Source: Clostridiisalibacter paucivorans DSM 22131 (GTDB taxonomy: Bacteria > Bacillota > Clostridia > Tissierellales > Clostridiisalibacteraceae). From it: a stretch of 58,468 nucleotides of DNA. Positions 1 to 35,158 of the stretch are shown piece after piece. The DNA lies in the NCBI RefSeq assembly GCF_000620125.1, contig NZ_JHVL01000018.1, positions 1-58,468 on the forward strand, read 5' to 3'. Numbering within the stretch: the stretch's first letter is position 1; the number at the start of each line of letters is the position of its first letter. The position numbers were made by a program, and so were the translations under genes. The notes beneath the pieces are model-generated. The model had not been told where the DNA came from and did no database searches. It saw only the letters and a list, made by a program, of their open reading frames with translations.

Positions 1-230
1 CCAAACTTTGTTTTTAGATTCTTTTGTGTGTGACCATTTCTTCGGTTATTAGTTCTTTTGTTTTTCTTATCTCCTTTGTCATATCCTAGTTCTATATCTA
101 ACTCAGCCTCAAGCATTTCCTGTAGAGCATCCTTAAACATTTCTTTAAGGAATGAATGGAGATCATCTGATGTTTTTAAATTTCCCCCTTTAATCATATC
201 TCTTAAAACTTCTTTTGGTAATGTACTCAT
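1..230 (-). CDS. IS256-family (mutator-type) transposase, N-terminal part, cut by the window edge
   Basis: The reverse strand reads from an ATG at 230 for 76 codons without a stop to the window edge. The protein begins MSTLPKEVLRDMI and continues with a run rich in Lys, Glu and Asp that includes LKEMFKDALQEMLEAELD, ELGYDKGD and RTNNRRNGH. This layout, a short helical N-terminus followed by the basic RRNG segment, is typical of IS256-family DDE transposases. The catalytic domain lies outside the window. A good ribosome binding site (AAAGGAG) precedes the ATG. The start lies next to a 12-bp inverted repeat described separately. Family assignment is by recognition of the N-terminus only. Confidence 0.85.
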   Translation of the reverse strand, partial: MSTLPKEVLRDMIKGGNLKTSDDLHSFLKEMFKDALQEMLEAELDIELGYDKGDKKNKRTNNRRNGHTQKNLKTKF

Positions 231-236
231 AACAAA

Positions 237-283
237 ACTCCTTTCTGGTTTAATTATTATTCTAATTATTGCCAGAAAGGAGT
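237..283 (-). promoter_or_regulatory. Inverted repeat that covers the transposase ribosome binding site
   Basis: ACTCCTTTCTGG (237-248) and CCAGAAAGGAGT (272-283) are perfect 12-bp inverted copies with a 23-nt AT-rich loop. Read on the minus strand, the second-transcribed arm contains the AAAGGAG ribosome binding site of the transposase. A transcript entering from outside the element would fold and hide it, whereas one starting inside the loop would not. This is a known protective logic in insertion sequences; its use here is inferred. The outer end of the IS lies somewhere in about 284-335 and cannot be placed without the other end. Confidence 0.6.
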
Positions 284-339
284 AATTTTTTTCACAAAAG
301 CACACATTTTTTTACATTACCGAATACTAGCTACTAAAT

Positions 340-2424
340 TTATATCTTCTTAAGTATATTTTTTTTAATAGCCATTGACATCGATATATTTTTTATGCCT
401 TTGCCTTCAAAGCAGATACTTGCCGTATCTCCTTTTAATTTTTTAATCGTACCTTGTCCAAATTTTATATGTGCTATATTATCACCTTCTACTATATCAT
501 GTTCAGGCATATTATATGAATCTATATCTTCCAACTCTGATATAAAAGTAGATTGTTTAACAGGTTCATTGTTTTTAGACTGTATAGTTAGTAGATATAG
601 TTCTTCCTTAGCTCTAGTCATACCTACATAAAAAAGTCGTCTTTCTTCTTCAAGGAGTTCTCCATTTCCATTTAGATGTTGAGAAATACTAGTAGATGAT
701 GGGAATTCATTTTCGATTAAATCTATTATGAATACTCTCTTGAATTCTAATCCTTTAGATGAATGTATAGTAGACATCCTTAACTTATTAGAATCATGTT
801 TTTTAACTGTATTTGCCATATCATATCTCAATCTGGGTATCTCGTTTAAAAAATCTATCAAACCTAAAGAGTAAAATGCTATAATTTTTAAAGCAGATAG
901 AATAGATTTTATATTGTCATAGGAATGACCAAAGGCTTTACAATTGTCTTTTAAATAGTCATTGTAATTTAAACTAGATAATATGTGTTCCAATCCTTTT
1001 AGTGGAGATAATTTTGATAGTATTTTAAATTCTTTATTGATTCTTTTAATATTTTTTAATTGAAAGCTTTTAAAATCTGGATATAATAACAGTTTATCAA
1101 ATACAGACCTACTTTCATTTGAATTTTTGATAAAATTGATTGCTGATTTTGGAATATAGCCATTCATTTTATAGTAAATTTTCTCCAATGATACTATATC
1201 TGTATTATCTAAGGATAACTTTATAAAAGCAGATATATCTTTTAAAATCCAGTGATTAAAAAAATTGAATTTATTATCGGTTACTGAAAAAGGTATATTA
1301 TTTTCTAATAATGCCTTTGAAAGCGCAATAGATGAAATATTGTTCCTATACAGTATAGCTGTATCAGAGTAATTACTCAGTGATTTTAATTTTTTTATCA
1401 ATTGTTCTAATTGTTGAAATTCATCTTTGAACTTCATAATTTCAATGGGCTTATGTATTTTATTTTTTGTAAAAAGTTTTTTTTCGTATCTAATCTTGTT
1501 ATTTTGAATAAATTTATGGGATACTGACACAATATTTTTAGAAGAACGATAGTTTTCTTCCATAAAAAATATTCTTCCAGATTTAAATTGTTCCTTAAAA
1601 TTTAATAGAATTTCAGGGTATGCACCTCTAAAACCATATATAGATTGATCATCATCTGCAACTATGAATATATTATTATGAGATTTAGACAATAGCTTTA
1701 TAATTTCATACTGTATTTTTGAGGTGTCTTGACCTTCATCTAATTGTATATACTTGTATCTTGACTGATATGTGTTTAGTATATTGGCATTAGATTTTAA
1801 AATGTAATAAGTCATAGTCAGCATGTCATCAAAGTCAATGTAATTATTTATCTTTTTATATTCTTCATATTTTTTAAATATTATTGAGAAGTTTTTTATG
1901 CCAAAATCATTGAATTCTCTAAAATCACCTATATTATACATCATATTTTTTACATATCCTATAGTATTTATTAGTTCCTCTAATTTATCTTCATTTATTG
2001 TAGAACTGTTTGTCCTTTCGTATATCTGCCTTAGAATATTATATTTGTTCATTGATGCTTTTTTTGATTCTAACAATGTATATTTTATTTTTTTAATCCT
2101 ACAATACTGATTGATTACACCATAAGAAAAACTATGGATAGTTGAAAACTTTGTATTTATAGTATCTCCAAAGAGTCCATTGAATCTCTTTTTCATATCT
2201 CTTTCAGAGGCTTTGCTGAAAGTGAGAGATAGAATATTATTTGGTGAGACCCCTTTATTGATAATTAAATTTGCTGTTCTACAGACTAAGAGTGTTGTCT
2301 TTCCTGACCCTGGTACAGCAAGTACTAAAGCTGGACCAGAAACATGATTTATAGCAGATTCTTGAGTAGTATTGAATCTTATATTTTGATTTTTTCTAAC
2401 AATATCAAATAGATTATTTTTCAT
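340..2424 (-). CDS. UvrD/PcrA-like superfamily 1 DNA helicase
   Basis: This 694-aa protein carries the SF1A helicase motifs in order: Walker A (GPALVLAVPGSGKTT, residues about 30-44), motif Ia (LSLTFSKASERDM), Walker B as DEGQD, motif III (VADDDQSIYGFRGA), motif IV (ENYRSS), motif V (STIHSSKGLEFKRV) and motif VI (VGMTRAKEELYLL). The C-terminus (IAHIKFGQGTIKKL) resembles the small Tudor-like tail of PcrA/UvrD that contacts RNA polymerase. It is slightly shorter than canonical PcrA (about 730 aa), so it may be a paralogue rather than the housekeeping copy. It stands alone on the minus strand, divergent from glnA, with an IS remnant behind its 3' end. Confidence 0.88.
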   Translation of the reverse strand: MKNNLFDIVRKNQNIRFNTTQESAINHVSGPALVLAVPGSGKTTLLVCRTANLIINKGVSPNNILSLTFSKASERDMKKRFNGLFGDTINTKFSTIHSFSYGVINQYCRIKKIKYTLLESKKASMNKYNILRQIYERTNSSTINEDKLEELINTIGYVKNMMYNIGDFREFNDFGIKNFSIIFKKYEEYKKINNYIDFDDMLTMTYYILKSNANILNTYQSRYKYIQLDEGQDTSKIQYEIIKLLSKSHNNIFIVADDDQSIYGFRGAYPEILLNFKEQFKSGRIFFMEENYRSSKNIVSVSHKFIQNNKIRYEKKLFTKNKIHKPIEIMKFKDEFQQLEQLIKKLKSLSNYSDTAILYRNNISSIALSKALLENNIPFSVTDNKFNFFNHWILKDISAFIKLSLDNTDIVSLEKIYYKMNGYIPKSAINFIKNSNESRSVFDKLLLYPDFKSFQLKNIKRINKEFKILSKLSPLKGLEHILSSLNYNDYLKDNCKAFGHSYDNIKSILSALKIIAFYSLGLIDFLNEIPRLRYDMANTVKKHDSNKLRMSTIHSSKGLEFKRVFIIDLIENEFPSSTSISQHLNGNGELLEEERRLFYVGMTRAKEELYLLTIQSKNNEPVKQSTFISELEDIDSYNMPEHDIVEGDNIAHIKFGQGTIKKLKGDTASICFEGKGIKNISMSMAIKKNILKKI

Positions 2425-2526
2425 ATATATTCTCCTAATTTTATTATATCTCTAGTATATTGTAATAAAAAAGTAGTGTAAATTTCAAATTAATTTATAG
2501 AAACGCCTTGCATATATATAAAAATA

Positions 2527-2587
2527 GTTATATAATAAAAAAGTGATTTTTTTATAACTAAATTTGAATTGGGCAAAGGCGTCCAAT
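2527..2587 (+). promoter_or_regulatory. Tandem hexaloop hairpins, predicted ANTAR-protein binding site in the glnA leader
   Basis: Two hairpins with six-base loops lie just before a terminator. Hairpin 1 (2527-2558) has loop AGTGAT on a five-base A/T stem, extended after a 4-nt bulge by GTTATA/TATAAC. Hairpin 2 (2568-2587) has loop AAAGGC on the 7-bp stem ATTGGGC/GTCCAAT (one G-U). Both loops have A at position 1 and G at position 4, the signature recognised by ANTAR antiterminators. Bases 2581-2587 of hairpin 2 are also part of the 5' arm of the following terminator, so the two folds exclude each other. The ANTAR regulator gene lies directly downstream of glnA. A TTGCAT-17-TATAAT promoter (2508-2536) would start transcription inside hairpin 1, so the true start is unresolved. 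Confidence 0.7.
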
Positions 2588-2634
2588 AATACAGGGATTA
2601 GTCCCTATATTATGGACGCTATTTTTTATTTTTG
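2579..2634 (+). terminator. glnA: Intrinsic terminator/attenuator in the glnA leader
   Basis: A long stem pairs GCGTCC...AGGGA (2579-2597) with TCCCT...GGACGC (2102 bases before the end of glnA's first kilobase is not involved; the 3' arm is 2602-2619). It has a four-base loop, one mismatch and one bulge, followed by a U-rich tract (2621-2634). It ends about 50 nt before glnA, so it must be read through for expression. Its 5' arm overlaps the second hexaloop hairpin, which fits antitermination. Confidence 0.85.
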
Positions 2635-2686
2635 TAGAAACAGTGCATAATTAATCATTTTAATAAAAATATGGGAGGTAGCTCTT

Positions 2687-4024
2687 ATGGGAAAAAATTA
2701 TACTAAAAATGACATTAGAAGAATTGCTAAAGAAGAAAATGTGGAATTTATTCATTTACAATTTACAGACATTATGGGAGTAATGAAAAATGTATCTATA
2801 ACTATTGAGCAATTGGATAAGGCATTGAACAATGAAATCATGTTTGATGGTTCATCCATTGATGGGTTTGTAAGAATAGAAGAATCTGATATGTATTTGT
2901 ATCCAGACCCTAATACCTTTGAAATATTTCCTTGGGGTTCTCCTAATCAAAAAGAGGCCAGAATTATATGTGATGTGTATAAATCTGATGGTAAGCCATT
3001 TTGTGGATGTCCCAGAAATGTGTTGAAGAATGTACTAAAAGAAGCAGAGGAAATGGGCTTTACTATGAATGTAGGTCCTGAGTGTGAATTTTTTCTATTT
3101 AATACAAACGAAAAAGGAGAACCATCACTGGATACCCATGACAATGCAGCGTATTTTGATTTAGCACCTGTAGATTTAGGTGGAAATGCCAGAAAAGATA
3201 TGATAACAGCATTGAAAAAAATGGGATTCAAGATAGAGGCTTCACATCATGAAGTGGCACCAGGACAACATGAAATAGATTTTGAATATGATAATGCATT
3301 AACTACAGCCGATAATATAATGACATTTAAAATGGCTGTAAGGATAATTGCTCAAAGACATGGTTTGCATGCCACATTTATGCCTAAACCTAAATTTGGA
3401 ATAAGTGGTTCAGGAATGCATATAAATATGTCATTGGCTACATTAGATGGTCAAAATGCATTTTATGATCCAAGTAATGATATGCAATTATCAGAAACAG
3501 CATATTACTATTTAGGAGGAATTATAAAGCATGCCAAAGGATATACTGCTATAACTAATCCAACTATTAATTCATATAAAAGACTTGTACCAGGATATGA
3601 AGCACCTATATTGATAGCTTGGTCAGCTAATAACAGAAGTCCGTTGGTTAGAGTGCCTTCAAAGAAGGGGAATTCTACTAGATTAGAACTTAGAAGTCCA
3701 GATCCATCAGCCAATCCATACCTTGCTTTAGCAGCTACATTAAAGGCAGGACTTGATGGTATAAAAAATAAAATAGAGCCACCAACTCCTGTTATGAGTA
3801 ATGTATATATCATGGATGATGAGGAATTGTTAGAAAAAGGTATAGAGAACTTACCTTTAAACTTATATGATGCATTAAAAGAATTGGAAAAGGATGCAGT
3901 TATAAAAGATGGTCTAGGAGACCATGTATATAATAGATTTAGAGATGCAGTATTGCTAGAATGGAGTGAATACTCTAAGTTCATAAGCCAATGGGAATTG
4001 GATCGATATTTAAGAAAATTTTAG
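2687..4024 (+). CDS. glnA: Glutamine synthetase, type I
   Basis: The 445-aa protein is a full-length class I-alpha glutamine synthetase, which makes glutamine from glutamate, ammonia and ATP in the cytosol. Visible landmarks are the beta-grasp start ([13 protein letters not shown]), the [10 protein letters not shown] segment, the metal-ligand region GPECEFFLF, the ammonia/glutamate site ([17 protein letters not shown]) and the NRSPLVRVP and [16 protein letters not shown] boxes. The insertion typical of adenylylated enterobacterial enzymes is absent, as in Gram-positive feedback-inhibited forms. The SD is GGGAGGT. The leader holds two ANTAR-type hairpins and a terminator, and the next gene is an ANTAR regulator, so nitrogen control by antitermination is inferred. 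Confidence 0.97.
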
Positions 4025-4039
4025 TTTATATGAAAAATA

Positions 4040-4072
4040 AAAACGGCAAAATTTTGCCGTTTTTATTTTTTT
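4040..4072 (+). terminator. Intrinsic terminator after glnA
   Basis: A perfect palindrome (AAACGGCAAAATTTTGCCGTTT) is followed by a T-rich run. It separates glnA from the downstream regulator gene, which has AT-rich promoter-like sequence (TATAAT-type boxes) from about 4072. Confidence 0.92.
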
Positions 4073-4165
4073 ATAATATTATAGTATAATATATATATAA
4101 GTATTATTGAGGGAGTTGAAATTTACAGATTTTGTCTTAATATATAAACTTGTTGGGGTGGTTTT

Positions 4166-4735
4166 ATGAGGCAATATAGTGTAGTGGTTGCAGATAGTAA
4201 TCAATCGTCCAGAAAAAATATAAGTAATCTGTTAATGCAGAGGGGATTAAAAACTTATCAGGCCACAGATGGTGGAAGTGTTTTGAGATTAGTTAGAACT
4301 TCATCTATTGACTTAGCTATAATAGATGTCAATCTACTGGGTATGAATCCCTTTGAAGTAGGAGATATAATAGAAGATGAAAATCTTTCTACTGTCGTAT
4401 TTATGACCAATAATCCTAATGTAGATTTATTTGAACATATGAAAACTATGAAGGTATATGCATATATTACTAAACCTGTTAATCCCAATGAATTATATCA
4501 TATAGTAGAATTTGCAATTGAGAGTGCCTCAAAAATAGATGATTTAGAAAGAAAGGTTAAAAGATTAGAAGATAAATTAGAAGGTAGAAAAAAGGTAGAC
4601 AGGGCTAAGGGTATACTCATGGATAGATTAAAAGTTCAAGAAGATGATGCTTATAAAATCTTGAGAAAAAAAAGCATGGATCAATGTGTATCCATAGAAA
4701 TTATTGCTCAAAAAATTATAGAAAAGTATTCATAG
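4166..4735 (+). CDS. ANTAR-domain response regulator (transcription antiterminator)
   Basis: The 189-aa protein has an N-terminal receiver domain (residues 1-120; phosphoacceptor Asp54 in AIIDVNLLGM, acidic residue at Asp10, conserved Lys in YITKP). A coiled linker follows (about 121-137), then a C-terminal ANTAR three-helix domain (about 138-186; VDRAKGILMDRLKVQEDDAY). ANTAR proteins bind pairs of hexaloop RNA hairpins and prevent termination. A matching hairpin pair lies before glnA, the adjacent gene, as with the clostridial NitR-type glnA regulators. No histidine kinase is nearby, so the input signal is unknown; regulation by glutamine synthetase itself is possible. The SD is GGGGTGG. Family is certain; the target is inferred. 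Confidence 0.9.
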   Translation: MRQYSVVVADSNQSSRKNISNLLMQRGLKTYQATDGGSVLRLVRTSSIDLAIIDVNLLGMNPFEVGDIIEDENLSTVVFMTNNPNVDLFEHMKTMKVYAYITKPVNPNELYHIVEFAIESASKIDDLERKVKRLEDKLEGRKKVDRAKGILMDRLKVQEDDAYKILRKKSMDQCVSIEIIAQKIIEKYS

Positions 4736-4756
4736 AAAATATTGGAGGTGTGAAAT

Positions 4757-5224
4757 TTGGCAAGACCGGTTAAATGGAGAAGGGTAGAAAATCTCCCCCA
4801 ATATAAATATTTTAAACCTGCAAATATTCCTGCGTGTGAATTGGAAGAAAATGTATTGAAGGTGGAAGAATTAGAGGCCATACGGTTACGAGACTTAGAA
4901 GCATTGGATCAGGAATCTTGTGCTGAAAAAATGAAGGTTTCCAGACAGACATTTCAAAGGATATATAATGACGCAAAGAAAAAGGTGGCAGATAGCTTAA
5001 TAAATGGTAAGGCTATTAGTATTAAGGGAGGTAATTATACGCGAAACATTTGTGTTTTAGTATGTGAAAAATGCGGTTATCAGTGGGAAAATAGAGTAGA
5101 AGACTTGGGGAAATATGAACAAGAAAAAAGTTCATGTCCCCAATGTGGAAGTGAAAACACCACATGTCATGAACCAAAGACTGGCAGATTTTGTGGTAGA
5201 CGGTGTAGACATAGAGGAATATAA
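4757..5224 (+). CDS. DUF134 family DNA-binding-like protein with zinc ribbon
   Basis: This 155-aa protein starts at a TTG with GGAGGTG seven bases upstream. The N-terminal 90 residues match DUF134/UPF0251: MARPVKWRRVENLPQYKYFKP, a VEELEAIRLRDLEALDQ sigma-like helix pair and a helix-turn-helix (AEKMKVSRQTFQRIY). The C-terminus carries CEKCGY...CPQCGS, a zinc-ribbon pattern, then a Cys/Arg-rich tail (CGRRCRHRG). The family is thought to be transcriptional regulators; the target is unknown. It lies 21 nt after the ANTAR regulator gene and before a small DUF5320 gene with its own promoter. DUF134 and DUF5320 genes often occur together in anaerobes. Confidence 0.85.
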   Translation: MARPVKWRRVENLPQYKYFKPANIPACELEENVLKVEELEAIRLRDLEALDQESCAEKMKVSRQTFQRIYNDAKKKVADSLINGKAISIKGGNYTRNICVLVCEKCGYQWENRVEDLGKYEQEKSSCPQCGSENTTCHEPKTGRFCGRRCRHRGI

Positions 5225-5227
5225 GTA

Positions 5228-5256
5228 AGACCCTTTAAAAAAGGGTCTATTTTTTT
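5228..5256 (+). terminator. Intrinsic terminator after the DUF134 gene
   Basis: AGACCCTTT (5228-5236) pairs with AAAGGGTCT (5240-5248) and is followed by a run of seven T. It closes the unit that begins at the ANTAR regulator. Confidence 0.92.
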
Positions 5257-5267
5257 AGGGAAGATTG

Positions 5268-5318
5268 TTGACATATGCCTATAACTCTATTATAATATAA
5301 ATATAAAGAGCATATGCC
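5268..5318 (+). promoter_or_regulatory. Consensus sigma-A promoter with flanking direct repeats
   Basis: TTGACA (5268-5273) and TATAAT (5291-5296) are separated by exactly 17 bp, a perfect housekeeping promoter. The octamer CATATGCC occurs at 5272-5279, overlapping the -35 box, and again at 5311-5318, in the transcribed leader. Such a pair could be an operator, for instance for the DUF134 protein encoded just upstream; that is inference. Confidence 0.8.
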
Positions 5319-5340
5319 AATAATTAAGGAGATGATTATA

Positions 5341-5601
5341 ATGCCAAGAAGGGATGGAACAGGTCCAGTAGGTCAAGGACCAATGACAGGATGGGGAAGA
5401 GGATATTGTAGAACAGATGCCTATGATTCTAGGAGAATAGGTTGTGGAAGGAGATTTTTTGGAAGAAGAGGATTTGGTGCTGGTATAAGAAGTATATCTA
5501 GTGACGAAGAAAAAAGCTTTTTGGAAGAAGAGAAGGGTATTCTTAAAAGAAGTTTAGAGGAAGTTGAAAACAGAATCAATCAATTGAATAAGGACGAATA
5601 G
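5341..5601 (+). CDS. Small DUF5320 protein, Gly/Arg/Cys-rich N-terminus with coiled-coil tail
   Basis: The preferred ATG at 5341 has AAGGAG nine bases upstream; an in-frame ATG at 5314 has no such site. The 86-aa product begins MPRRDGTGPVGQGPMTGWGR, followed by GYC and a second Cys in RIGCGRRFFGRR, then a helical Glu/Lys-rich tail (about 55-86) likely to form a coiled coil. This is the DUF5320 layout. Members usually sit next to DUF134 genes or NifX/NifB-like and ParA/Mrp-type iron-sulfur genes, but the function is not established. It is monocistronic, between a consensus promoter and a strong terminator. Confidence 0.85.
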   Translation: MPRRDGTGPVGQGPMTGWGRGYCRTDAYDSRRIGCGRRFFGRRGFGAGIRSISSDEEKSFLEEEKGILKRSLEEVENRINQLNKDE

Positions 5602-5603
5602 TA

Positions 5604-5646
5604 AAAAATAGAGTACGATCTTAAAAAATCGTACTCTATTTTTTAT
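5604..5646 (+). terminator. Intrinsic terminator after the DUF5320 gene
   Basis: AAAATAGAGTACGAT (5605-5619) pairs perfectly with ATCGTACTCTATTTT (5629-5643) and runs into T-rich sequence. The A-rich foot makes it potentially bidirectional. Confidence 0.93.
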
Positions 5647-5726
5647 TTTATAATCATAAATGAGATGAAAATTTGATTTTTTGATACAATAGATTTAAAT
5701 ATGAAATAGTAATTGGGGGTATTCTT

Positions 5727-8700
5727 GTGTCTGTTAAAGATGTATACTACGGTCCATTAAATAATAACTATAAAGAAAAAATTATTGAAAAGGCTAAAAA
5801 ATATTTAATAGAAAATAAAGGAGATAAGTTTTTTTATATATTACCCAGTGGAAATCTGTTGAATAAATATAGAAATATGTTTTTGAAGTCAACTAAAGGT
5901 ACTTTAGATTTAAATATTATAACATTTGACGATATAGTAAAGATGATAGCCAATGGGAAAAAATATATCTTTATTGATGATCCTATTAAAGATACTATTA
6001 TATATAAAGTTGTAAAAAAATTAGAAAAAGAAGATAAGTTGAAGTATTATAAAAAACAGATAGAATCAGAAGGGTTTATACAGGATATTAGTTATATATT
6101 AGGAACAATAAAAAGGTCACTGATTACTCCCGAAGAATTCCATAAAAAGATACCATATATGGATAAATTCAAAGAAATGGGATTGATATATGATTGCTAT
6201 CAAAGATTTATTACAGAGAAAAATATGCTAGATACTGAAGAGGTCTTTATTAAAGCATTAGAGGAAATAAAGAGTTCTAATACCCTATTTAATAATCTTG
6301 AGTTTGTAATAATTGATGAATTTTTTGATTTTAGACCTCAAGAATTAGAGATATTGAAGGCTATGGCATTGTCTGATATAGATATATATATGAATATACC
6401 TTATAAGGTTAAAGAAGAAAGCTATACAGTGATAAATATAATAGAGAAGCTTCGAAATATGGGATTTCAGATTACAAATATTGAAGGTGAAGATAAAGAC
6501 TTTTTTACTAAAATTGGTAACGATGACTTTGGCTTGAATAGTAGTTCGTATAAAAAAAATGAAGATATAAAATTGATAAAGGCTGATACAAGGAGACTAG
6601 AAATAAAAAAGGTATGTGAATTAATAAAAAAAGAAAACAAAGATATTTCCCTAGATAATATAGCATTAATATTGGGAAATGATAATAAGTATAGAGAATT
6701 AGTAATAGACATATTTAATCAAGAAAATATACCTATATCGTTGAGGGAAGAAAAGATGTTAATAGACATTCCCTTGGTAAAAGAGTTGATAAATATACTG
6801 GAACTGAGACTGACTAATTATAATAAAATAACATTATTAAAGGCCTTGAAGTCAGGATACATGGATGTATGTGATGGAAATGATAAGGATAAAATGGAAT
6901 ATGTATTTCATATACTAAATTTAGATGAGAGATGTACAAAAGATAAAGTGACTCATGCTATTGGTAAAGAAAAGAATAGATTGAGACTACTTAAGGGCAA
7001 TAGTGAAAATCCAAACAGAATAGAAAATTTCATGGAAGATTTATCTAATTTAGAATACATTTTAGAGTTGTTATTTGACAAAGTATCAGAAATGGAAAAA
7101 GTAGGTCCTATAGATGAAATTATAGATAAATATATGGAAATTATAGAATTTTATGATATAACAGATAGAATAAAAATTTTATATGAATCTACTAAGGATT
7201 ATTCTATTTTGCATAGAGATTTATCTGCTATAAGTAGATTTAAAGAGATACTTAATGAGGTGAAAGAGATATGTAAACCCATATATGGGAAAGGTATAGC
7301 ATTGGAGGATTTATACAGGCTAATTAAAAGATTATGTGAAAATGAAAGTATATATTTAAATAATTTGCCAGAAAGATGTGTGAATGTACTGACGCCATCT
7401 ACTGCAAGGGGCAGTAGATTTAGCACAGTTTTTATTATGGGAATGATACAAGGGGAATATCCCAATGTTATAAATAAGAGCTGGTTTTTTAGAGATGAGG
7501 ATATAGAAATATTTAAAAATATGGGAATAGATTTTAAGAGTTATCAAGATAGATTGGACAAAGAAAAACTCTTATTTGCAAATGCTATTTCTAGGGCGAG
7601 AAAAAAGTTGTATTTTAGTTATTGCAACGAAGATAACAGTGGCAAAGCACTTATATCGTCTCCATTTTTGGAGCAATTTATAGATGTTTTTAAAGGCGAG
7701 AAAATAGAAGACAAGATTAAAATATTATATGTAGATAAGGATTATATAATAAAGGACGATCTAGATACAGTAACTACGACTAGTGATTTAATTAAAAGTG
7801 TCATATATAATTACTACAAAAATGGAAAGGGGGATATATTTAAGCATATTCCCAGTGCGTATGTGGATACCATTAATGATATAGTAAACAAACTATCTTG
7901 TGAACTTAAAAGATATCAAAAAGGGTTTAACGAATATGATGGAGTAATGGATGAGAAATCTATTAAGGATGAAATATATGAAAGATTTTCACAAGAAAAA
8001 ATGAGTATAACTCAGTTGGAAACCTATGGGAAATGTCCCTTTAGATATTTACTTGAATACATACTGCAGATAAAACCACTGGAAAAGGATATAGATGATT
8101 TTACTCCTATGGACAAGGGCGATATATATCATAGAGTTTTAGCCCAATATTATAGAAAAAATAGTTTGAAATTAAGAGAGATAATAATAAACAATGGAAT
8201 TTTAAATGTAGAAAAAACGAAAGAAGAACTAAAGAAGATTTTAGATAGTGAAATATATAGCATGATGAAAATTAGAGATAAGAGACTCTGGGATTTAAGA
8301 AAAAATCATATGTCAAAAATACTATTAAATGTAATTAAAAAAGATGTGGAGAGACTTAAAGTATACAAAATGATACCTAGAGAGTTTGAATTGGGATTTG
8401 GATATAATGATGATTTTGTTTTAAAATTAGAAAATGGAACAGCTAGTTTTATAGGGAAAATAGATAGGATAGATGTGGACGAATTAGATGGAAAGGTTAT
8501 TATATATGACTATAAAACTTCCAAAGGAAAGGGTATTAATGATATGTTAAAGGGCATATCTCTTCAGACTCCCATATATATACTGTATCAACAAAGTTTA
8601 GGGAAAGATGTGGTTGGTGGAGGATATATAACGATAAAAGATGGAGAGATGTATACTAGTATTTTAAGAGATAAATATAAGGATAGATTTAAATCTAAAA

Positions 8701-8897
8701 AGGGATTAGATAAAGAAGAATGGGACATGCTTTTTTATGAAACCAAAAGATATATTGATCAATATTTAAAGGGCATTTATACAGGAGATTTTAGACTTAA
8801 TCCCAAGGAATGCACAGTGTTTTGTCCATATAAAAATGTATGTAGATATGATATAGAGAGAATAAATGGAAAGGAGTCTGGAGATGAAATTAACTGA
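5727..8897 (+). CDS. addB: ATP-dependent helicase/nuclease subunit AddB
   Basis: This 1056-aa GTG-started protein is the AddB half of the AddAB double-strand-break resection machine (the RecBCD counterpart), which unwinds and degrades ends up to Chi and loads RecA. The N-terminus has the degraded helicase start (FFYILPSGNLLNKYRNMF). The middle has SF1-like segments (LTPSTARGSRFSTVFIMGM; FANAISRARKKLYFSY). The C-terminus is a RecB-type nuclease (IIYDYKTSKGKG) framed by the four Fe-S cysteines (GKCPFRYL near residue 770, and CTVFCPYKNVC near the end). It is slightly shorter than B. subtilis AddB. It overlaps addA by 14 bp, so translation is probably coupled. Confidence 0.95.
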   Translation: MSVKDVYYGPLNNNYKEKIIEKAKKYLIENKGDKFFYILPSGNLLNKYRNMFLKSTKGTLDLNIITFDDIVKMIANGKKYIFIDDPIKDTIIYKVVKKLEKEDKLKYYKKQIESEGFIQDISYILGTIKRSLITPEEFHKKIPYMDKFKEMGLIYDCYQRFITEKNMLDTEEVFIKALEEIKSSNTLFNNLEFVIIDEFFDFRPQELEILKAMALSDIDIYMNIPYKVKEESYTVINIIEKLRNMGFQITNIEGEDKDFFTKIGNDDFGLNSSSYKKNEDIKLIKADTRRLEIKKVCELIKKENKDISLDNIALILGNDNKYRELVIDIFNQENIPISLREEKMLIDIPLVKELINILELRLTNYNKITLLKALKSGYMDVCDGNDKDKMEYVFHILNLDERCTKDKVTHAIGKEKNRLRLLKGNSENPNRIENFMEDLSNLEYILELLFDKVSEMEKVGPIDEIIDKYMEIIEFYDITDRIKILYESTKDYSILHRDLSAISRFKEILNEVKEICKPIYGKGIALEDLYRLIKRLCENESIYLNNLPERCVNVLTPSTARGSRFSTVFIMGMIQGEYPNVINKSWFFRDEDIEIFKNMGIDFKSYQDRLDKEKLLFANAISRARKKLYFSYCNEDNSGKALISSPFLEQFIDVFKGEKIEDKIKILYVDKDYIIKDDLDTVTTTSDLIKSVIYNYYKNGKGDIFKHIPSAYVDTINDIVNKLSCELKRYQKGFNEYDGVMDEKSIKDEIYERFSQEKMSITQLETYGKCPFRYLLEYILQIKPLEKDIDDFTPMDKGDIYHRVLAQYYRKNSLKLREIIINNGILNVEKTKEELKKILDSEIYSMMKIRDKRLWDLRKNHMSKILLNVIKKDVERLKVYKMIPREFELGFGYNDDFVLKLENGTASFIGKIDRIDVDELDGKVIIYDYKTSKGKGINDMLKGISLQTPIYILYQQSLGKDVVGGGYITIKDGEMYTSILRDKYKDRFKSKKGLDKEEWDMLFYETKRYIDQYLKGIYTGDFRLNPKECTVFCPYKNVCRYDIERINGKESGDEIN

Positions 8898-11800
8898 TAG
8901 TCAGCAAATAGCAGTAGATACTATAGATACAAATATGGCAGTGAATGCTGGGGCAGGCTCTGGGAAAACGAAAGTTCTGGTAGAACGATATATAAATATA
9001 TTGAAAAGGGGTAGCCTTAGAGAAAATAAAGAAATTGATTCCATAGTAGCCATAACATTTACAAATAAAGCTGCAGCAGAAATGAAGGAACGGGTAAGAA
9101 ATTCTATTAAGATGTTAAAGGATAAAGATATAAAGTGGAATAGGCTGTATAATGATTTGGATAGGGCAAATATTTCTACAATACATAGCTTTTGTACTGA
9201 GATATTAAAAGAAAATCCCATAGAAAGTAATGTGCCATCTAGATTTAATCTGCTTGATGAACATGAATCTACAGAATTATTATCAAATATAACTAAAAAA
9301 ATAATTAATAATGGAATTAAAAAGGGATGTGAAATATATGATTTTATAGAGTATTTTACCCCCGATTCATTAGATGGCTCCATCTACACCCTAAGTATTA
9401 TAGAAAATATTGTATCTATATATAAAAAGATTAGAACTACAGGCAAGAAATTTATACAGATTAAAGATATAACGTTAAAAAATATTGAAGGCTTAACCGT
9501 TGATATCAGTGAAATAAACAAGATAAGAAAAAATTTTTCGTTTTTAATAGAAAAGGGCTCAAAGAGATCAAAATATAAAAAATTAGAAGATGATATTGTA
9601 TGGGAAAGATTTAGAAGTAGAGATATATCCAATATTGATGTCAATCTGATTGATGAAATAATATATCTGTCTGATTATATTGGCAAAATGAAGAAATATC
9701 AAGATATTGTAGATGAATTAAGTCAATCAGTAAATAATGTAATTATGATTAGAGAGAAATATTATAAAAAGATTTATGAAATACTGTTAGACATATTGAT
9801 AGAATTAGATATAGAGTATAGCAATCAGAAAAGAATATTAGGGCTATTAGATTATGAAGATTTGCAGATAAAGGTTTTGGAACTTTTTGAAGATGATGAT
9901 ATATTAGCTAGATACCACAATAGATTTAGGTATGTAATGGTTGATGAGTTTCAAGATACTGATGAATTACAAAAGAATATAATATATAAATTATGTAGTA
10001 AGTTAAAGCCTCTAGATAGGAAAAATCTTTTCGTAGTTGGAGACCCTAAGCAATCCATATACGGATTTAGAGGGGCTAATGTAGATGTATTTTATAAAGT
10101 TATGGAAGATATAAATAAATTGTATGGAAATGAAACAATAGTTTTAAAAGATAACTTTAGAACAGTAGATACTGTCATGGATTTTATAAATGATATTTTT
10201 CAAAATATAATGTCTAACAAATATACTCCACTAAGATATAATAGTAGATCTGCAAATAGTATAGATGTGGAATTTCTTACAAACGAGGATTTAAAAGTAT
10301 TTGAGGGACAATCTGAAGGAGATTATCAAAAAAGATTTGAGGCAAGTTTAATTGCTAAAAGAATAAGAAAATTGATAAAAGAAGGCTATAATTATGACGA
10401 TATTGCCATACTTTTTAGGTCTTCTTCAGATATAGATATATATGAAAAATATTTACACAAATATGAAATTCCGTATTACACCCTTGTAGGAAATGATTTA
10501 TTAAAAAGACAAGAGATAATAGACATCATCAATTGTTTAAAGACTATAAACAATAAATATGATGACTTATCTTTGCTGGGAGTGTTGAGGAGTCCTTTAT
10601 TTGGTATTTCTGATGAAACCCTATATTATCTTAGAAAATACACAGATGACTATATTATACAGTCTATGGATACAGAAATTGAAGAATTGAAGGTAGAACA
10701 GAAAGAGATGTTAAAAAAGGCATATGAGATTATAGATAGTCTCAATGGTTTTAAATATGTCATGACATTAAAGGAATTAATCAATAAAATTCTTGATTTG
10801 ACTAATTATATGGAGATTTTATTGTTGAAAAAGGAAGGAAAACAATCGATAGCAAATATATATTCATTTATAGATTTGGCAGAAAGATATGAAAAGGAGA
10901 ACAATGGCACAATAAATGAATTTATTGATTATATAGATAATTTGATATCCAATGGGGCCATTCAAGAGCAGGAACAACTTCAGTCAGAGACAGATAATAT
11001 TGTAAAGATAATGACAATACATAGGTCGAAGGGATTAGAATTTCCAGTTGTATTTATTCCTCAAATGGCAAAAAGATTTAATTTGATAAATGGGCCCATA
11101 CTTTTCAATGAAAATTTTGGAATAGGAATAAAGCACCCAAATGATTTAGGAAAATTGGATAAAGATATATCACCTATATATGCTAAATTAAATGAAGTAC
11201 AAAAAAGAAATGATATAGAAGAAAATAAGAGAGTATTATATGTGGCGATGACAAGGGCAGAAAAAAGGCTTATTATGGGTTTACAGCCTATAGATAAATT
11301 TAAATATAGCTTTAAGGGAATAATAGGAAATAATATTCCTAAGGATAAGTGCAAATTTACAGCAGATATTGAATTGGAAAATACAACTGATTTTACTACA
11401 GTGCATATACCTAAAAAGATAATGCTTGATAATTCAAATAAAAAATCTATAGAATTAATGGAATATGATAATTATAATAATAATAAAAATTTCAATAGAT
11501 TTACTATAACTCAATATATGGTATTTAATTATTGTAACAGATATTTCTATATGACATATTATAAGGGAATTCCTATTGCAAATGATTATTATATTGAAAA
11601 AAAGAAAAGTAGTATACTGATAGATAGTGCTACTAGAGGAACTATAGTACATAATATCTGTGAAAGATATATTGATGGAATGGATGCACGGCATATGATA
11701 GAAGAAGAATTATATAAGTATGGATTGCCTTTAGATAAAGCATATATAGATGAAATAATGGTATATATAAAGAATTATATATATTATTATCATGAAGATT

Positions 11801-12216
11801 TTGATATATGTTACAAAGAAAAGGAATTTTATTATAATATATTTGGGAAAAATATTTATGGAATAATAGATAGAATAAATATAAAGGATGGGAGGGCAGA
11901 GATAATAGACTATAAGACCAATAGTGTAAGAAATACCAAAAGTAAATTGAGAAAACAATATGGTCCACAGTTGAGGCTATATGCCAAGGCATTCCAAGAT
12001 ATCTCTAATATTGTAGTGGATAGTGCCAGTATATTATTATTGGAGACAGGAGAAAAAATAAATATTGATATTTCAAATAATAAAATAGAAGAAAATTTAA
12101 ATAATATAAAACAATTTATAGAATTTGTAACTACCCATAGAGATATAAAAGACTATCACAAAAGGAGTTATGGGTGCAAATATTGTAAATTTAACTATAT
12201 ATGTGAGATATATTAA
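8884..12216 (+). CDS. addA: ATP-dependent helicase/nuclease subunit AddA
   Basis: The ATG at 8884 is chosen because AAGGAG lies seven bases before it; an ATG at 8866 would overlap that site. The 1110-aa protein has all SF1A motifs: Walker A (NAGAGSGKTKVLVERY, residues about 21-36), FTNKAAAEMKERV, DEFQDTD, GDPKQSIYGFRGA, DNFRT, TIHRSKGLEFPVVFIP and VAMTRAEKRL. It ends in a RecB-family nuclease domain with AEIIDYKTNS and a CKYCKFNYIC tail. AddA is the 3'-5' translocating motor and 3'-strand nuclease, paired with AddB. It overlaps the end of addB in a two-gene operon. Confidence 0.96.
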   Translation: MKLTDSQQIAVDTIDTNMAVNAGAGSGKTKVLVERYINILKRGSLRENKEIDSIVAITFTNKAAAEMKERVRNSIKMLKDKDIKWNRLYNDLDRANISTIHSFCTEILKENPIESNVPSRFNLLDEHESTELLSNITKKIINNGIKKGCEIYDFIEYFTPDSLDGSIYTLSIIENIVSIYKKIRTTGKKFIQIKDITLKNIEGLTVDISEINKIRKNFSFLIEKGSKRSKYKKLEDDIVWERFRSRDISNIDVNLIDEIIYLSDYIGKMKKYQDIVDELSQSVNNVIMIREKYYKKIYEILLDILIELDIEYSNQKRILGLLDYEDLQIKVLELFEDDDILARYHNRFRYVMVDEFQDTDELQKNIIYKLCSKLKPLDRKNLFVVGDPKQSIYGFRGANVDVFYKVMEDINKLYGNETIVLKDNFRTVDTVMDFINDIFQNIMSNKYTPLRYNSRSANSIDVEFLTNEDLKVFEGQSEGDYQKRFEASLIAKRIRKLIKEGYNYDDIAILFRSSSDIDIYEKYLHKYEIPYYTLVGNDLLKRQEIIDIINCLKTINNKYDDLSLLGVLRSPLFGISDETLYYLRKYTDDYIIQSMDTEIEELKVEQKEMLKKAYEIIDSLNGFKYVMTLKELINKILDLTNYMEILLLKKEGKQSIANIYSFIDLAERYEKENNGTINEFIDYIDNLISNGAIQEQEQLQSETDNIVKIMTIHRSKGLEFPVVFIPQMAKRFNLINGPILFNENFGIGIKHPNDLGKLDKDISPIYAKLNEVQKRNDIEENKRVLYVAMTRAEKRLIMGLQPIDKFKYSFKGIIGNNIPKDKCKFTADIELENTTDFTTVHIPKKIMLDNSNKKSIELMEYDNYNNNKNFNRFTITQYMVFNYCNRYFYMTYYKGIPIANDYYIEKKKSSILIDSATRGTIVHNICERYIDGMDARHMIEEELYKYGLPLDKAYIDEIMVYIKNYIYYYHEDFDICYKEKEFYYNIFGKNIYGIIDRINIKDGRAEIIDYKTNSVRNTKSKLRKQYGPQLRLYAKAFQDISNIVVDSASILLLETGEKINIDISNNKIEENLNNIKQFIEFVTTHRDIKDYHKRSYGCKYCKFNYICEIY

Positions 12217-12513: not shown

Positions 12514-14352
12514 TTGCTTAAAAAAATCATATTAATAGTTATTATAATAATTTGTTTTAAAAATAAATCTTATGCTGCAAATAATGATAAAAATATGTTG
12601 CTGGTATTGGACAATATTGATTATGAAATTATAAATGAATTAATTGTAGACTATAATTGTTCCATAGGTTTAATGAATGCTTGTATAGAAAACTATTTTA
12701 AAGATATAGATTTAGATTCATATTTCATGACTATAGCTTCAGGGGAGAAAATAAAAGCAAAGAGGCAGCTAGATAATATACTGACATTGTCTAAAATATG
12801 TAATGCAAATCATAAGAAATTGAAATATATAGGTAAGGGTAAATCCTCAATATTGATAGATAAAGATTATATATCAATGGAAGAAAAGGAAGGTTTGGAT
12901 ATAATATATAGAAAAGAATGGTTAATAGAGAAAATAGATAATTTTTTTCATGATGGAGATTTATTAATTGTAGACCTTGATATTGATAATATTGAAGAAA
13001 GAAAAGAAGTATTTAAAGATATTTTATCTATATATAATAGAAGAGCCAATATTCTGATAATATCCCAAGGAGTACCACAGAAATTTAGAGTGAGATTTAA
13101 CAAGACTATAGTACCTGTATTATATATAGATAAACATAAAGAAGGGGGGATACTTACTAGCGATTCTACTAAAAGGATAGGTATAATATCTATACTGGAT
13201 TTATTTCCAACAATTATTAAAAATATGGGCATATCTACTACTAATATAACTAGAGGAAGTCCAATATATACAATAAAAGGAAATCCTAATAGATGGGAAA
13301 GTATATTTTTAAATAGTGTAGGTATGAATATTATAAAATATATAATATATGGAGTATTTGTATTTATTCAAAGCACTGTTATAGTAAGATATCTATTGAA
13401 TAATGGATACAAATATATAGATGTTTTTTTGGTGAATACATGTCAAATGGCTATATTTATTTCTTTGGTTATGGGAATTATTATCAAAAACCTTGATATA
13501 TATATATATTTAAGTACAGTTTTTTTTGTATCTATAGGTTGGTCATTTTACAGCAGAAGATCTATAGGAAATATGTTTGATTTATTATCTGTTTTTACAA
13601 ATCTCATTATATTATATGGTGTATTTTTCAATATAGAGATGCTATACAGATCTTTTATTGGTTATAACAATATATTGGCTGGGGGAAGATTTTATGGATT
13701 AAATAATGATATCTTAGGTGTACTATTAGGGACATCAATTATAACTATATTTTATATAAAAAAATATATAGATAATAAATTTTTTTCTAAAATGATAATC
13801 ATATGTTATATTGCCATTATTTATATTGCACTGTCTTCTAGATTTGGTGCTAATTTTGGGGGATATTTGACAGCTATTTTTTCAACTGTTTTTGTGATAT
13901 CTAAGTTTATATTTAAAAGAAGGAATAAGATATCAAGTATTGTTTTTTTAATTATATTGGTGGGGATATTGGTTTTTGTAAATATATATTTAGATTATAT
14001 ATCTTATGATATTGGATATATGGGAAGATTTATATCGAGAATAAAAGAGATAGGGTCTCAAGAAATAGTAGACATGGTTATAATAAAAGCAAAACAAGTG
14101 TTGTTTATGATTATAGTTCCTCCTTGGAGTATAACATTTTTAGTACATATATTTTTTATATTGAATTTATATAGAAAGAGTTATAAACAACATATAAATC
14201 TGTCATATATAGATATTAGTTTTTTTGTAATAATGTTTTTTAGTTTATTACTAAATGATACAGGTGTAACTACTTTTTTTTATATAAACACATATTACTT
14301 AACTTATAAGATAGATATGCAGATGAAAGACCATACATTTAAAATCAATTAG
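12514..14352 (+). CDS. Large membrane protein with secreted alkaline-phosphatase-like N-terminal region
   Basis: This 612-aa product has a TTG start and a weak upstream GTGGG. Residues 1-21 form a signal-like helix ending in SYAAN. An extracytoplasmic stretch of about 250 residues follows; its last part (SDSTKRIGIISILDLFPTII) resembles the conserved end of alkaline-phosphatase-superfamily domains, but I see no clear metal-binding or nucleophile set. The C-terminal half holds about ten hydrophobic helices with the motif GRFYGLNNDILGV, a pattern I have seen only in uncharacterised Firmicute membrane proteins. Function is unknown; a cell-envelope role is a guess. An N-terminal pseudo-enzyme fused to a polytopic domain is the notable feature. 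Confidence 0.65.
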   Translation: MLKKIILIVIIIICFKNKSYAANNDKNMLLVLDNIDYEIINELIVDYNCSIGLMNACIENYFKDIDLDSYFMTIASGEKIKAKRQLDNILTLSKICNANHKKLKYIGKGKSSILIDKDYISMEEKEGLDIIYRKEWLIEKIDNFFHDGDLLIVDLDIDNIEERKEVFKDILSIYNRRANILIISQGVPQKFRVRFNKTIVPVLYIDKHKEGGILTSDSTKRIGIISILDLFPTIIKNMGISTTNITRGSPIYTIKGNPNRWESIFLNSVGMNIIKYIIYGVFVFIQSTVIVRYLLNNGYKYIDVFLVNTCQMAIFISLVMGIIIKNLDIYIYLSTVFFVSIGWSFYSRRSIGNMFDLLSVFTNLIILYGVFFNIEMLYRSFIGYNNILAGGRFYGLNNDILGVLLGTSIITIFYIKKYIDNKFFSKMIIICYIAIIYIALSSRFGANFGGYLTAIFSTVFVISKFIFKRRNKISSIVFLIILVGILVFVNIYLDYISYDIGYMGRFISRIKEIGSQEIVDMVIIKAKQVLFMIIVPPWSITFLVHIFFILNLYRKSYKQHINLSYIDISFFVIMFFSLLLNDTGVTTFFYINTYYLTYKIDMQMKDHTFKIN

Positions 14353-14453
14353 AAAAAAAATTTGCGCAAAAGAGAAAGAAAACTTTTCAATATAATCCAA
14401 ATATTTAAAATATTATTAAAAATACCAATATTCGAAATGAAGGGAAAATGAAG

Positions 14454-14524
14454 CATTTAATGTAAAAAATAAACATATAAATAAATTAAATGAAAATTGG
14501 CAAAAAAATTGCATTTCATTTAAT
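14454..14524 (+). promoter_or_regulatory. Candidate sigma-54 (-24/-12) promoter with repeated CATTTAAT boxes
   Basis: TTGGCA (14497-14502) and TTGCAT (14509-14514) place GG (14499) and GC (14511) exactly 12 bases apart, as in sigma-54 promoters (TGGCAC-N5-TTGCA type). CATTTAAT or its inverse occurs at 14454-14461, 14485-14492 and 14517-14524; the last two form an inverted repeat around the promoter. The window also encodes RpoN. No enhancer-binding activator gene is nearby. The rest of the 254-bp gap (14353-14606) is AT-rich with no ORF. Confidence 0.55.
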
Positions 14525-14606
14525 GTTGAAGGGGGAATAAATTATGACGTAAAAGTTAATGTAAAACTAAGGAAAACATTATCACAAAAATAAGGGGGAA
14601 TTGATA

Positions 14607-16175
14607 ATGGAAGGCGGATATGGTGTTTTAGCAGTATTACCACCTTTGATAGCTATAATATTAGCTTTTGTTACTAAACGGGTGTTGGTTTCTTTATTCC
14701 TTGGTATATTTACTGGTGGAATTATAATTTCTGGAGGCAATCCCTTTGGAGGAGTAGTTTATTCACTAGATAAAATTGTTACGTCTATGACTGATGATTA
14801 TAATGCAAGGTTATTGTTATTTAATTTAATCATGGGTTCAGGTGTGGCATTTATATGGAAATTGGGTGGTAGTGAAGCATTGACAGTATGGGCAAGGGAT
14901 AAAATAAAGAGTAGAAAGTCAGCAGGGGTAGGAGCATGGCTATTGGGAATAATAGTGTTTTTTAATGATTATGTAAATGCAGCTATTGTGGGAAATGTCT
15001 TTAGAGATATAAGTGAAGAGCAAAAGATTTCCACTGAAAAATTATCTTATATATTAGATTCAACTGCTGCACCTGTTGCTACTTTTTTCATATCAGATTG
15101 GATAGCATTTCAAATAGGTATGGTAAAATCGGGAATGGATACAGCTAATATTACTTCTATGAGTGCATTTGAGGGATATTTAAGGAGTGTTCCTTTGAAT
15201 CTATATTGTATATTTGCAGTATTATTTGTAGGCATAGTAGTAATAACAGGAAAAGATTTTGGCCCTATGCTCAAGGCTGAACATAGAGCTATATCTGAAG
15301 GAAAGATAGTAAGGGATGGAGCTAAACCTATGATGGATGTAGGATATGAATTAGGAGAACCTATAAAGACTAGACCCATGATAATAACATTCTTTGCACC
15401 GTTGATTGTATTAGTAGTGGTAACATTGTTTGGATTTTGGTGGACAGGTAGGGGAGCAGGGAATTTAATGGAGATACTAGGAGCTTCAGATCCAGCCACA
15501 GCTCTGTTATGGGGAGCTTTTGCAATGTCTATCACAGGTATAATTATGGCATTAACTACTAAAATTATGAATTTGTCAGAGGCTATGGATACACTTATAA
15601 ATGGATTTAAATTAATGCTTTTGGCATCTGTAATATTAGTAATGGCATGGTCATTAGGTGGAGTTACTGGAGATATGCAATTGGCAGATTTTATAGTTAA
15701 TTCCATAGGAGAGAACACTCCATTTGCCATATTACCTGGTATTATATTTATAATAGGTATGGTTGTAGCCTTTGCCACTGGAACCTCTTGGGGAACTATG
15801 ACAATACTTACTCCAATAGCTATACCATTGGCTTATAAATTGACAGGAGATATAAATTTATCAGTTTCAATGGCCGGTGTAGTATTTTCAGGGGCTATAT
15901 TTGGAGATCACTGTTCACCTATTTCAGATACAACAGTATTGGCATCTATATTTTCAGGGGCTGACCATATAGATCATGTGTCTACTCAAATCCCCTATGC
16001 ATTATCAGTAGCAGTAATATCATTTTTAATGTATTTATTATATTCCTTTGCAGGATTAGGACCAATTATCTTAATTCCAATAGGAATAGTGTTAATGTTA
16101 GTTATGCATTATATACTTTCAGGATATTATGAGAAAAAATATGGTATAGATTCTAGAACTAAAAGAGCAGTATAA
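14607..16175 (+). CDS. Na+/H+ antiporter, NhaC family
   Basis: The ATG at 14607 is preceded by AAGGGGGA at good spacing; a TTG six bases earlier is too close to it. The 522-aa protein has about eleven or twelve hydrophobic helices. NhaC-superfamily hallmarks include FFNDYVNAAIVGNVF, LDSTAAPVATFFISDW, FATGTSWGTMTILTPIAIPL and FGDHCSPISDTTVLAS. It would exchange external protons for internal Na+ (or another cation or organic acid) across the membrane; the substrate cannot be read from sequence. It stands alone, possibly under sigma-54 control, and converges on an MFS gene. Confidence 0.9.
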   Translation: MEGGYGVLAVLPPLIAIILAFVTKRVLVSLFLGIFTGGIIISGGNPFGGVVYSLDKIVTSMTDDYNARLLLFNLIMGSGVAFIWKLGGSEALTVWARDKIKSRKSAGVGAWLLGIIVFFNDYVNAAIVGNVFRDISEEQKISTEKLSYILDSTAAPVATFFISDWIAFQIGMVKSGMDTANITSMSAFEGYLRSVPLNLYCIFAVLFVGIVVITGKDFGPMLKAEHRAISEGKIVRDGAKPMMDVGYELGEPIKTRPMIITFFAPLIVLVVVTLFGFWWTGRGAGNLMEILGASDPATALLWGAFAMSITGIIMALTTKIMNLSEAMDTLINGFKLMLLASVILVMAWSLGGVTGDMQLADFIVNSIGENTPFAILPGIIFIIGMVVAFATGTSWGTMTILTPIAIPLAYKLTGDINLSVSMAGVVFSGAIFGDHCSPISDTTVLASIFSGADHIDHVSTQIPYALSVAVISFLMYLLYSFAGLGPIILIPIGIVLMLVMHYILSGYYEKKYGIDSRTKRAV

Positions 16176-27896: not shown

Positions 27897-27914
27897 TCAT
27901 TCGTTAAAAACAAA

Positions 27915-28083
27915 TAACTAAAGGCAGGTCTTCTGGCTCTGGGTCATAATTCTCTTATACCTTCCCATCTTATGAATAAGACAGTGGTTTTAACATAACA
28001 GAACTCACCATTACAGCGGTGGGACCGCTGGAGACTTTCACTCCATTCCCTTTTCACCTATAATATCATAGGCACCTATAGTT
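27915..28083 (-). ncRNA. Cobalamin riboswitch
   Basis: The minus strand shows the cobalamin aptamer landmarks in order: GGTGCC at the 5' end (28070-28075), AAAAGGGAAT and GTGAAA..TCC, the B12-box-like CAGCGGTCCCACCGCTGTAA core (about 28006-28026), and the 3' AGAAGACCTGCC (27923-27934). A strong terminator follows, then cobT. Only about 20 nt separate its 5' end from the proA stop, so its promoter must overlap the end of proA unless transcription runs through from proBA. Confidence 0.95.
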
Positions 28084-28103
28084 AAAATTTAATTTCACTT
28101 AAA

Positions 28104-34942: not shown

Positions 34943-34992
34943 AGTACTAAAGAATTATACATAAATTGAATAAATTATAACTGGAGGAAAAA

Positions 34993-35158
34993 TGCGGGAG
35001 AGTTCAAAGTTTTGGCGCCGAAGGAGTAAATCAGAGGTATTGCCGACCTGTGATGATACTCTCAGGCAAAAGGACCGTATTTGGACAGTACTCTGAAGAG
35101 CGAAAGCACCGAAGGGGCAATTCTTGAGGTTTTATTAAAGAAGAAACTCTCAGGTTTA
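34993..35158 (+). ncRNA. Tandem glycine riboswitch
   Basis: Two glycine aptamers are visible. The first opens with GCGGGAGAG and carries GGCGCCGAAGGAG and ACTCTCAGGCAAAAGGACCG (ends about 35078). The second has CTCTGAAGAGC, AGCACCGAAGGGGCAA and AACTCTCAGG. These are the textbook conserved segments of the class. A terminator hairpin follows directly and then the glycine reductase genes, so glycine should turn the operon on. Confidence 0.96.

Follow-up and report, generated by a model that had tools for sequence, protein, structure and literature searches.

In the 58,468-nt stretch of Clostridiisalibacter paucivorans DSM 22131 analyzed here (the window; contig NZ_JHVL01000018.1), the glutamine synthetase gene glnA (2687–4024, forward strand; Pfam PF00120 and PF03951) is followed by a gene for a 189-aa receiver–ANTAR regulator of the NitR type (4166–4735, forward strand). 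We consider it quite likely that the leader of glnA acts as an ANTAR antitermination switch of the NitR type and works with one hexaloop. An initial annotation had proposed an ANTAR circuit with two hexaloop hairpins ahead of glnA. That the neighboring regulator runs such a circuit on glnA is well supported by our genome comparisons, because the linkage of the two genes and the overlap between hairpin and terminator are conserved and the leader co-occurs with ANTAR genes across genomes. The two-hexaloop part did not survive: the comparisons bring out a conserved second hairpin (hairpin 2) and a conserved promoter position, but no conserved first hairpin (hairpin 1), and hairpin 2 seems to act alone.

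Hairpin 2 and its genomic distribution

Hairpin 2 (2568–2587, forward strand), a putative antiterminator, consists of ATTGGGC-AAAGGC-GTCCAAT, with the hexaloop AAAGGC at 2575–2580 on a stem of 7 pairs and an energy of −7.0 kcal/mol when folded alone. It runs into a strong intrinsic terminator, a stem followed by a U-rich tract (2578–2620, forward strand; −23.7 kcal/mol, z −6.5), such that bases 2581–2587 are common to the hairpin and to the 5′ arm of the terminator. Hairpin and overlap had both been predicted by the initial annotation, and both are present, with the folding energies just given.

Conservation was judged from 60 relatives obtained in a search with a NitR-type protein, none of which belongs to the window's own family or genus, so that the comparison applies at greater distance only. 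Of 20 loci taken from these relatives, 18 (including L052 and L053) combine a glnA match with an ANTAR protein; the remaining two (L050 and L051) were read as eutV loci. A search for related loci with a single NitR protein found nothing, and one with a NitR alignment found 7 loci, among them those of Anaeromonas frigoriresistens, Thermohalobacter berrensis and Caloranaerobacter azorensis. In the NCBI taxonomy, the two of these named relatives that were checked belong to the Tissierellales, class Tissierellia; we take the sampled class to be Clostridia in GTDB terms.

Hairpin 2 lies upstream of glnA in 16 of the 18 related loci that have both genes, with the core CAAnGGCGTY (or a variant of it, in L049) in each of those 16. 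The exceptions are L052 and L053; the L052 genome does have the hairpin, but farther upstream within that stretch (L085), where the gene that follows was read as an amidotransferase of glutamate synthase. In an alignment of 16 leaders, which leaves out L037 as a near-copy of L035, loop positions A1, A2, G4, G5 and C6 and the closing C–G pair are invariant, so the A1 and G4 on which the annotation had relied are kept in all 16. The stem contains 10 double-changed cells, and none of 500 shuffles reaches either that count or the covariation score, although 27 of the 500 reach the number of pairs that have a double change. Covariation of the terminator pairs is no greater than in shuffles in this set. 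In a larger set of 35 leaders, both helices surpass every one of 500 shuffles in score and in double-changed cells; these leaders were collected by similarity, and their invariant loop letters are therefore partly built in. As far as the compared sequences go, hairpin 2 is more than a chance structure, because its A1 and G4 are invariant and its stem covaries.

Two covariance models, R1 and R2, were built from hairpin 2 and the terminator. The 5′ limit of both models is the 5′ arm of hairpin 2, and they therefore select neither for nor against a first hairpin. R1 matched 23 further genomes among 391 of the class, all 23 of which have an ANTAR gene (p = 6e-8), the base rate being 196 of 391. 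With R2, 99 of the 391 genomes were matched, and an ANTAR gene is present in 93 of these 99 versus 103 of the 292 unmatched genomes. Removal of 19 training genomes left 74 matched genomes with and 6 without an ANTAR gene (odds ratio 22.6, p = 1e-21); G088, although not a training genome, carries a leader apparently identical to one used in training. In a phylum-wide sample, 65 of 338 genomes were matched, 62 of them with an ANTAR gene, and without the five genomes common to both samples the counts are 57 with and 3 without (p = 4e-17). At E-values up to 0.1, a model match occurs in 23 of the 60 relatives, including three eut leaders (G012, G040 and G057). We took the weak matches in G011, beside a tRNA-like stretch, and G044 for chance, and a second match in the C. 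paucivorans genome (C16:23497, 25.6 bits), which is without the CAAnGGC core, for an ordinary terminator.

For closer comparison, 92 class leaders were assembled; of the R2 matches, roughly those at E below 0.005 were taken, though not every one, and three R1 matches (L114, L116 and L118) are outside this set. A downstream open reading frame (ORF) was found for 89 of the 92, and the BLAST clusters of these ORFs were each named from one or a few representatives. The largest groups are genes whose products have a class-II glutamine amidotransferase domain and were assigned by reading to the glutamate-synthase type (30/89), and glutamine synthetases, taken as types I and III (26/89). Smaller groups comprise asparagine synthetases and GlmS/PurF (4/89 each), ammonium transporters and PurC (3/89 each), and single genes for CTP synthase, the small subunit of carbamoyl-phosphate synthase and a further class-II amidotransferase. 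Others encode, for example, citrate synthase, an amino-acid permease, an IclR regulator and an ATP synthase subunit, and a DapF-containing cluster accounts for 4/89. Without DapF, 73 of the 89 genes act in nitrogen assimilation or in steps toward purines, pyrimidines, asparagine or amino sugars, and glutamine is used in most of these. In one purC leader (L121), the hexaloop hairpin appears to be duplicated in tandem, with the second copy ∼70 nt 5′ of the match.

Promoters and the number of hexaloops

The initial annotation had remarked as an oddity that the promoter TTGCAT-17-TATAAT (2508–2536, forward strand) would exclude hairpin 1. This observation becomes the main point of the argument, as the predicted start, near 2543, falls inside the loop of hairpin 1. 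The promoter has 9 of 12 consensus matches, and its TTGCAT box only 3 of 6; we preferred it for its conserved counterpart in relatives and not for a higher score. All 17 of the order-level glnA leaders have a promoter near TTGCAT/TTGACA-17-TATAAT that scores 8–11 of 12, with the −10 box 11–33 nt 5′ of the hairpin. A different scoring rule picked other −35/−10 pairs for the window and for L034.

The letters of hairpin 1 are present within its core at 2537–2552 (forward strand), AAAAA-AGTGAT-TTTTT, with A1 and G4 in the loop. The stem is A/T-only, however, and the 16-nt element on its own has an energy of 0 kcal/mol; a longer A/T palindrome around it pairs in a fold of 2526–2640. A hexaloop with A1 and G4 on at least 5 pairs arises in 5–8% of shuffles of the same A/T-rich stretch. 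In none of the 16 relatives does an A1/G4 hexaloop with at least 3 pairs lie between the predicted start and hairpin 2, and the A/T-rich A1/G4 hexaloop of one relative, L044, is upstream of its promoter. Likewise, none of the 17 order-level glnA leaders has a first hexaloop 3′ of the predicted start. For hairpin 1, then, the loop conservation that the two-hairpin proposal called for is lost in all 16. Hairpin 1 is not conserved, probably is not transcribed and probably stands outside the system. This case is a comparative one; judged on the window's own letters, which leave room for hairpin 1, its exclusion would be doubtful.

The class leaders tell a similar story at larger scale. By the rule used, 88 of the 92 have an A1/G4 hexaloop, and the other four (L136, L174, L179 and L180) are outside the counts that follow. 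A promoter score of at least 10 of 12 was found in 66 of the 88 (5% of shuffles), and 26 have a perfect promoter, which none of the shuffles has. In 51 of the 88, a score of at least 10 is combined with a −10 box that ends 4–12 nt 5′ of the hairpin (1% of shuffles), so that the mRNA would begin at the hairpin or a few bases from it, with no room for a first one. Among the 79 leaders with a promoter of at least 9 of 12, there is no space for a 12-nt first hairpin in 62. Only 3 of the 88 (L115, L153 and L185) have, no more than 50 nt upstream, a first A1/G4 hexaloop whose stem contains two or more G–C pairs. By the same rule such a hexaloop is present in 12 of 48 leaders of the phylum-wide sample (p = 2e-4), for which 49 matches were taken as leaders and 48 counted (L242 is without an A1/G4 hexaloop); in only 3 of these 48 does a good promoter place its −10 box 12 nt or less from the hairpin.

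The eut leaders of C. paucivorans serve as an internal control. The eutS leader has the first hexaloop TGCAC-AATGGG-GTGCA and the eutA leader, by reading, AACAC-AAAGAC-GTGTT; the relatives' eut leaders matched by the model (L082, L083 and L084) also carry a first hexaloop, likewise by reading. The second hexaloops of the two C. paucivorans eut leaders (8186–8250 and 11163–11240 of locus L003) seem by reading to be GAAGAG and GAAGGG, with G and not A in first place.

The regulator and the glnA locus

The receiver and ANTAR domains that the initial annotation assigned to the 189-aa protein were both found by Pfam, as PF00072 (58.3 bits) followed by PF03861 (66.1 bits), each over the cut-off. Its two best sequence matches among solved structures are 1s8n, an antiterminator, and 6wsh, a response regulator, which we take to be Rv1626 and EutV, respectively. 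The receiver pocket of the window protein is incomplete, with D54, T82 and K104 kept and D–S as the acidic pair. We aligned 31 proteins to EutV positions: the window protein, 10 from the order and 20 from the class, each of the latter representing a different genome with a leader match. Both acids of the acidic pair are present in none of the 31. Every one of the 11 order proteins retains D54; in the class set, N occupies this position in 13 proteins, G in 3 and D in 4. The pocket is complete in the three EutV proteins aligned alongside. The incomplete acidic pair and the frequent loss of D54 make a kinase-driven switch unlikely for many such proteins, and doubtful for the window protein.

On the RNA-binding side, the window protein has the same residues as EutV at R142, K143, K149, E160, Y164, R168 and M172, with other residues at 147 (R), 173 (D, which the EutV of C. 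paucivorans also has), 175 (C) and 177 (S); the roles of these residues in EutV follow PMC8934654. In the 20 class proteins, His replaces the loop-stacking Tyr164 of EutV in 13 and Glu replaces Arg168 in 11, so their contact with RNA may be different from that of EutV.

Reading of the ORFs of 80 aa or longer in 1–12000, five of which were also run against Pfam, showed no kinase, and an EutW query gave zero matches within the window; the annotation's remark that no kinase is nearby thus agrees with what we find. Weak EutW matches 5′ of glnA in three relatives (L040, L042 and L044; ∼48 aa, E 2e-4 to 4e-4) were taken for an unrelated kinase. The genome of C. paucivorans has two ANTAR matches, the NitR-type protein at 4166–4735 and EutV, the latter in an apparent eut operon with EutS, EutP and an adjoining sensor kinase (eut names read from translations). 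Because the ANTAR gene is linked to glnA, one may conjecture that glutamine synthetase or PII is the partner of NitR.

Divergent from glnA is a UvrD-type helicase gene (340–2424, reverse strand; Pfam). Between glnA and the ANTAR gene lies a terminator-like hairpin (4040–4063, with T-rich DNA to 4072, forward strand; −11.5 kcal/mol), which is missing from the output of the terminator scan tool; from this hairpin, the ANTAR gene may have a promoter of its own besides that of glnA. In one relative (L036), two genes at 3963–6762, read as a probable transporter and a peptidase, separate glnA from the ANTAR gene. Elsewhere in the window, Rfam gave scores above gathering for a cobalamin riboswitch (27906–28094, reverse strand), a glycine riboswitch (34985–35087, forward strand) and a SECIS_4 selenocysteine element (39934–39971, forward strand). 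In the eut locus on contig C6 of the same genome (L003), two similar neighboring genes of the eut operon, at 12739–14103 and 14115–15497, each seem by reading to encode an EutB-like large subunit of ethanolamine ammonia-lyase.

Alternative readings, known systems and a proposed mechanism

Several observations weigh against a single-hexaloop switch, and some of them would favor a classical leader whose two hairpins are both part of the transcript and both required. Hairpin 1 has its A1 and G4; promoters of equal score, with predicted starts near 2454 and 2529, would include it; and a consensus scan tool listed the promoter with the start near 2454, not the one that we prefer. The same tool listed no terminator in 2400–2700, a result that we attribute to a rule that does not fit the bulged stem. 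In the class, 17 of the 79 leaders with a promoter of at least 9 of 12 have the −10 box at least 20 nt away and possibly room for a first hairpin. When the rule is relaxed to 3 pairs and A/T stems are admitted, an A1/G4 hexaloop lies within 45 nt upstream in 17 of 88 leaders, compared with 9.2 expected from shuffles, and 6 of the 17 lie after the −10 box, so that there are surely some two-hexaloop leaders among the 88. Moreover, the characterized ANTAR antiterminators are all described with two hairpins (PMC3369931, PMC7496416): EutV requires both hairpins in vivo (PMC3369931), and selection of RNA ligands (SELEX) with NasR enriched two hairpins (PMC7496416). We nevertheless regard a two-hexaloop glnA leader as decidedly unlikely, given that hairpin 1 is absent from all 16 relatives, has no folding energy of its own and appears in shuffles at an appreciable rate, and that the best-placed conserved promoter would start transcription inside it. 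Far less probable still is that hairpin 2 belongs to an ordinary terminator or attenuator worked by some other RNA-binding protein or ligand, with the ANTAR gene an incidental neighbor. The terminator is indeed strong and overlaps hairpin 2, and 6 matched genomes of the class (G071, G097, G172, G265, G289 and G321) and 3 of the phylum sample (G583, G652 and G672) have no ANTAR match. However, the 5′ arm and loop of hairpin 2 are conserved and covary although they lie largely outside the terminator stem, and the leader tracks ANTAR genes across genomes. Rfam found no family above threshold on the window leader (three matches fell below it, two on the opposite strand) and only two tRNAs in the 20 related loci.

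A different question is whether NitR is phosphorylated as an ordinary response regulator would be, by an orphan kinase encoded at a distance. This reading is compatible with antitermination at one hexaloop and would be favored by the D54, T82 and K104 that the window protein retains. The D–S acidic pair, the missing acids in all 31 proteins and the N or G at position 54 in 16 of the 20 class proteins argue for a pseudo-receiver instead, as does the contrast with the EutV of C. paucivorans, which has a complete pocket and an adjoining kinase. We think a phosphorylated NitR rather unlikely.

ANTAR control of glutamine synthetase and glutamate synthase (GS/GOGAT) genes in clostridia has been described before, and the single-hexaloop form of it appears to be new. 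NitR of Clostridium saccharobutylicum NCP262 is reported to induce GS/GOGAT genes by antitermination under nitrogen shortage (PMC6316151), and an ANTAR gene in a GOGAT cluster of C. thermocellum has been noted as a possible antiterminator (PMC4676874). The same linkage is found here in 18 loci, and the window protein is a candidate ortholog of that NitR. Ramesh et al. (2012; PMC3369931) described two-hairpin targets ahead of genes for glutamate, glutamine and arginine synthases; these targets share gene types and hairpin/terminator overlap with the present leaders but were found with a two-hairpin model, whereas ours came from a model of a single hairpin and terminator. Actinobacterial ANTAR targets are likewise described as dual (PMC8164766). 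In the EutV–RNA structure one hexaloop is the minimal binding motif, and the role of single-hexaloop motifs was left for further work (PMC8934654). The literature searched, which leaves most subscription papers outside, yielded no account of clostridial ANTAR leaders with a single hexaloop.

The EutV/EutW system of Enterococcus faecalis, and of C. paucivorans itself, likewise pairs a receiver–ANTAR protein with an A1/G4 hexaloop that overlaps a terminator. It differs from the glnA leader in having two hexaloops, both needed (PMC3369931, PMC8934654), and the window protein is without the complete pocket of EutV, with no adjoining kinase seen among the neighboring ORFs. NasR and AmiR also act on nitrogen-related genes by ANTAR antitermination, as we propose for glnA, at leaders that are both described with two hairpins. 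NasR has a NIT domain, unlike the window regulator. AmiR has a pseudo-receiver, as the NitR-type proteins probably do; that of AmiR is not phosphorylated (PMC3369936, PMC8934654), and AmiR is switched by AmiC; AmiC-like partners were not searched for here.

For the single-hexaloop switch that we favor, we infer the start site, RNA binding, one-hairpin antitermination, nitrogen signal and mode of switching as follows. Transcription would begin ∼25 nt 5′ of hairpin 2. When active NitR is absent, the terminator would form and glnA would go unread. When nitrogen is short, active NitR, probably as a dimer, would bind the single AAAGGC hexaloop at 2568–2587 as the RNA emerges from the polymerase and keep 2581–2587 from the terminator, so that glnA is read. 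The partner that switches NitR would not be a dedicated kinase and may be glutamine synthetase or PII.

For the class as a whole, we think it fairly likely that Clostridia have a large nitrogen/glutamine regulon in which pseudo-receiver ANTAR proteins use single, often 5′-terminal hexaloops as complete antiterminators. The two-hexaloop rule of EutV and NasR would fail there, and in many of these mRNAs the binding site would be what is transcribed first. Searches that use two-hairpin models could miss such targets, for which Rfam had no family in the 20 loci. The glnA leader and its relatives form a natural and widespread set on which the role of single-hexaloop motifs can be tested, and they suggest a way of sensing nitrogen without a dedicated kinase, because many such receivers are without the phospho-aspartate.

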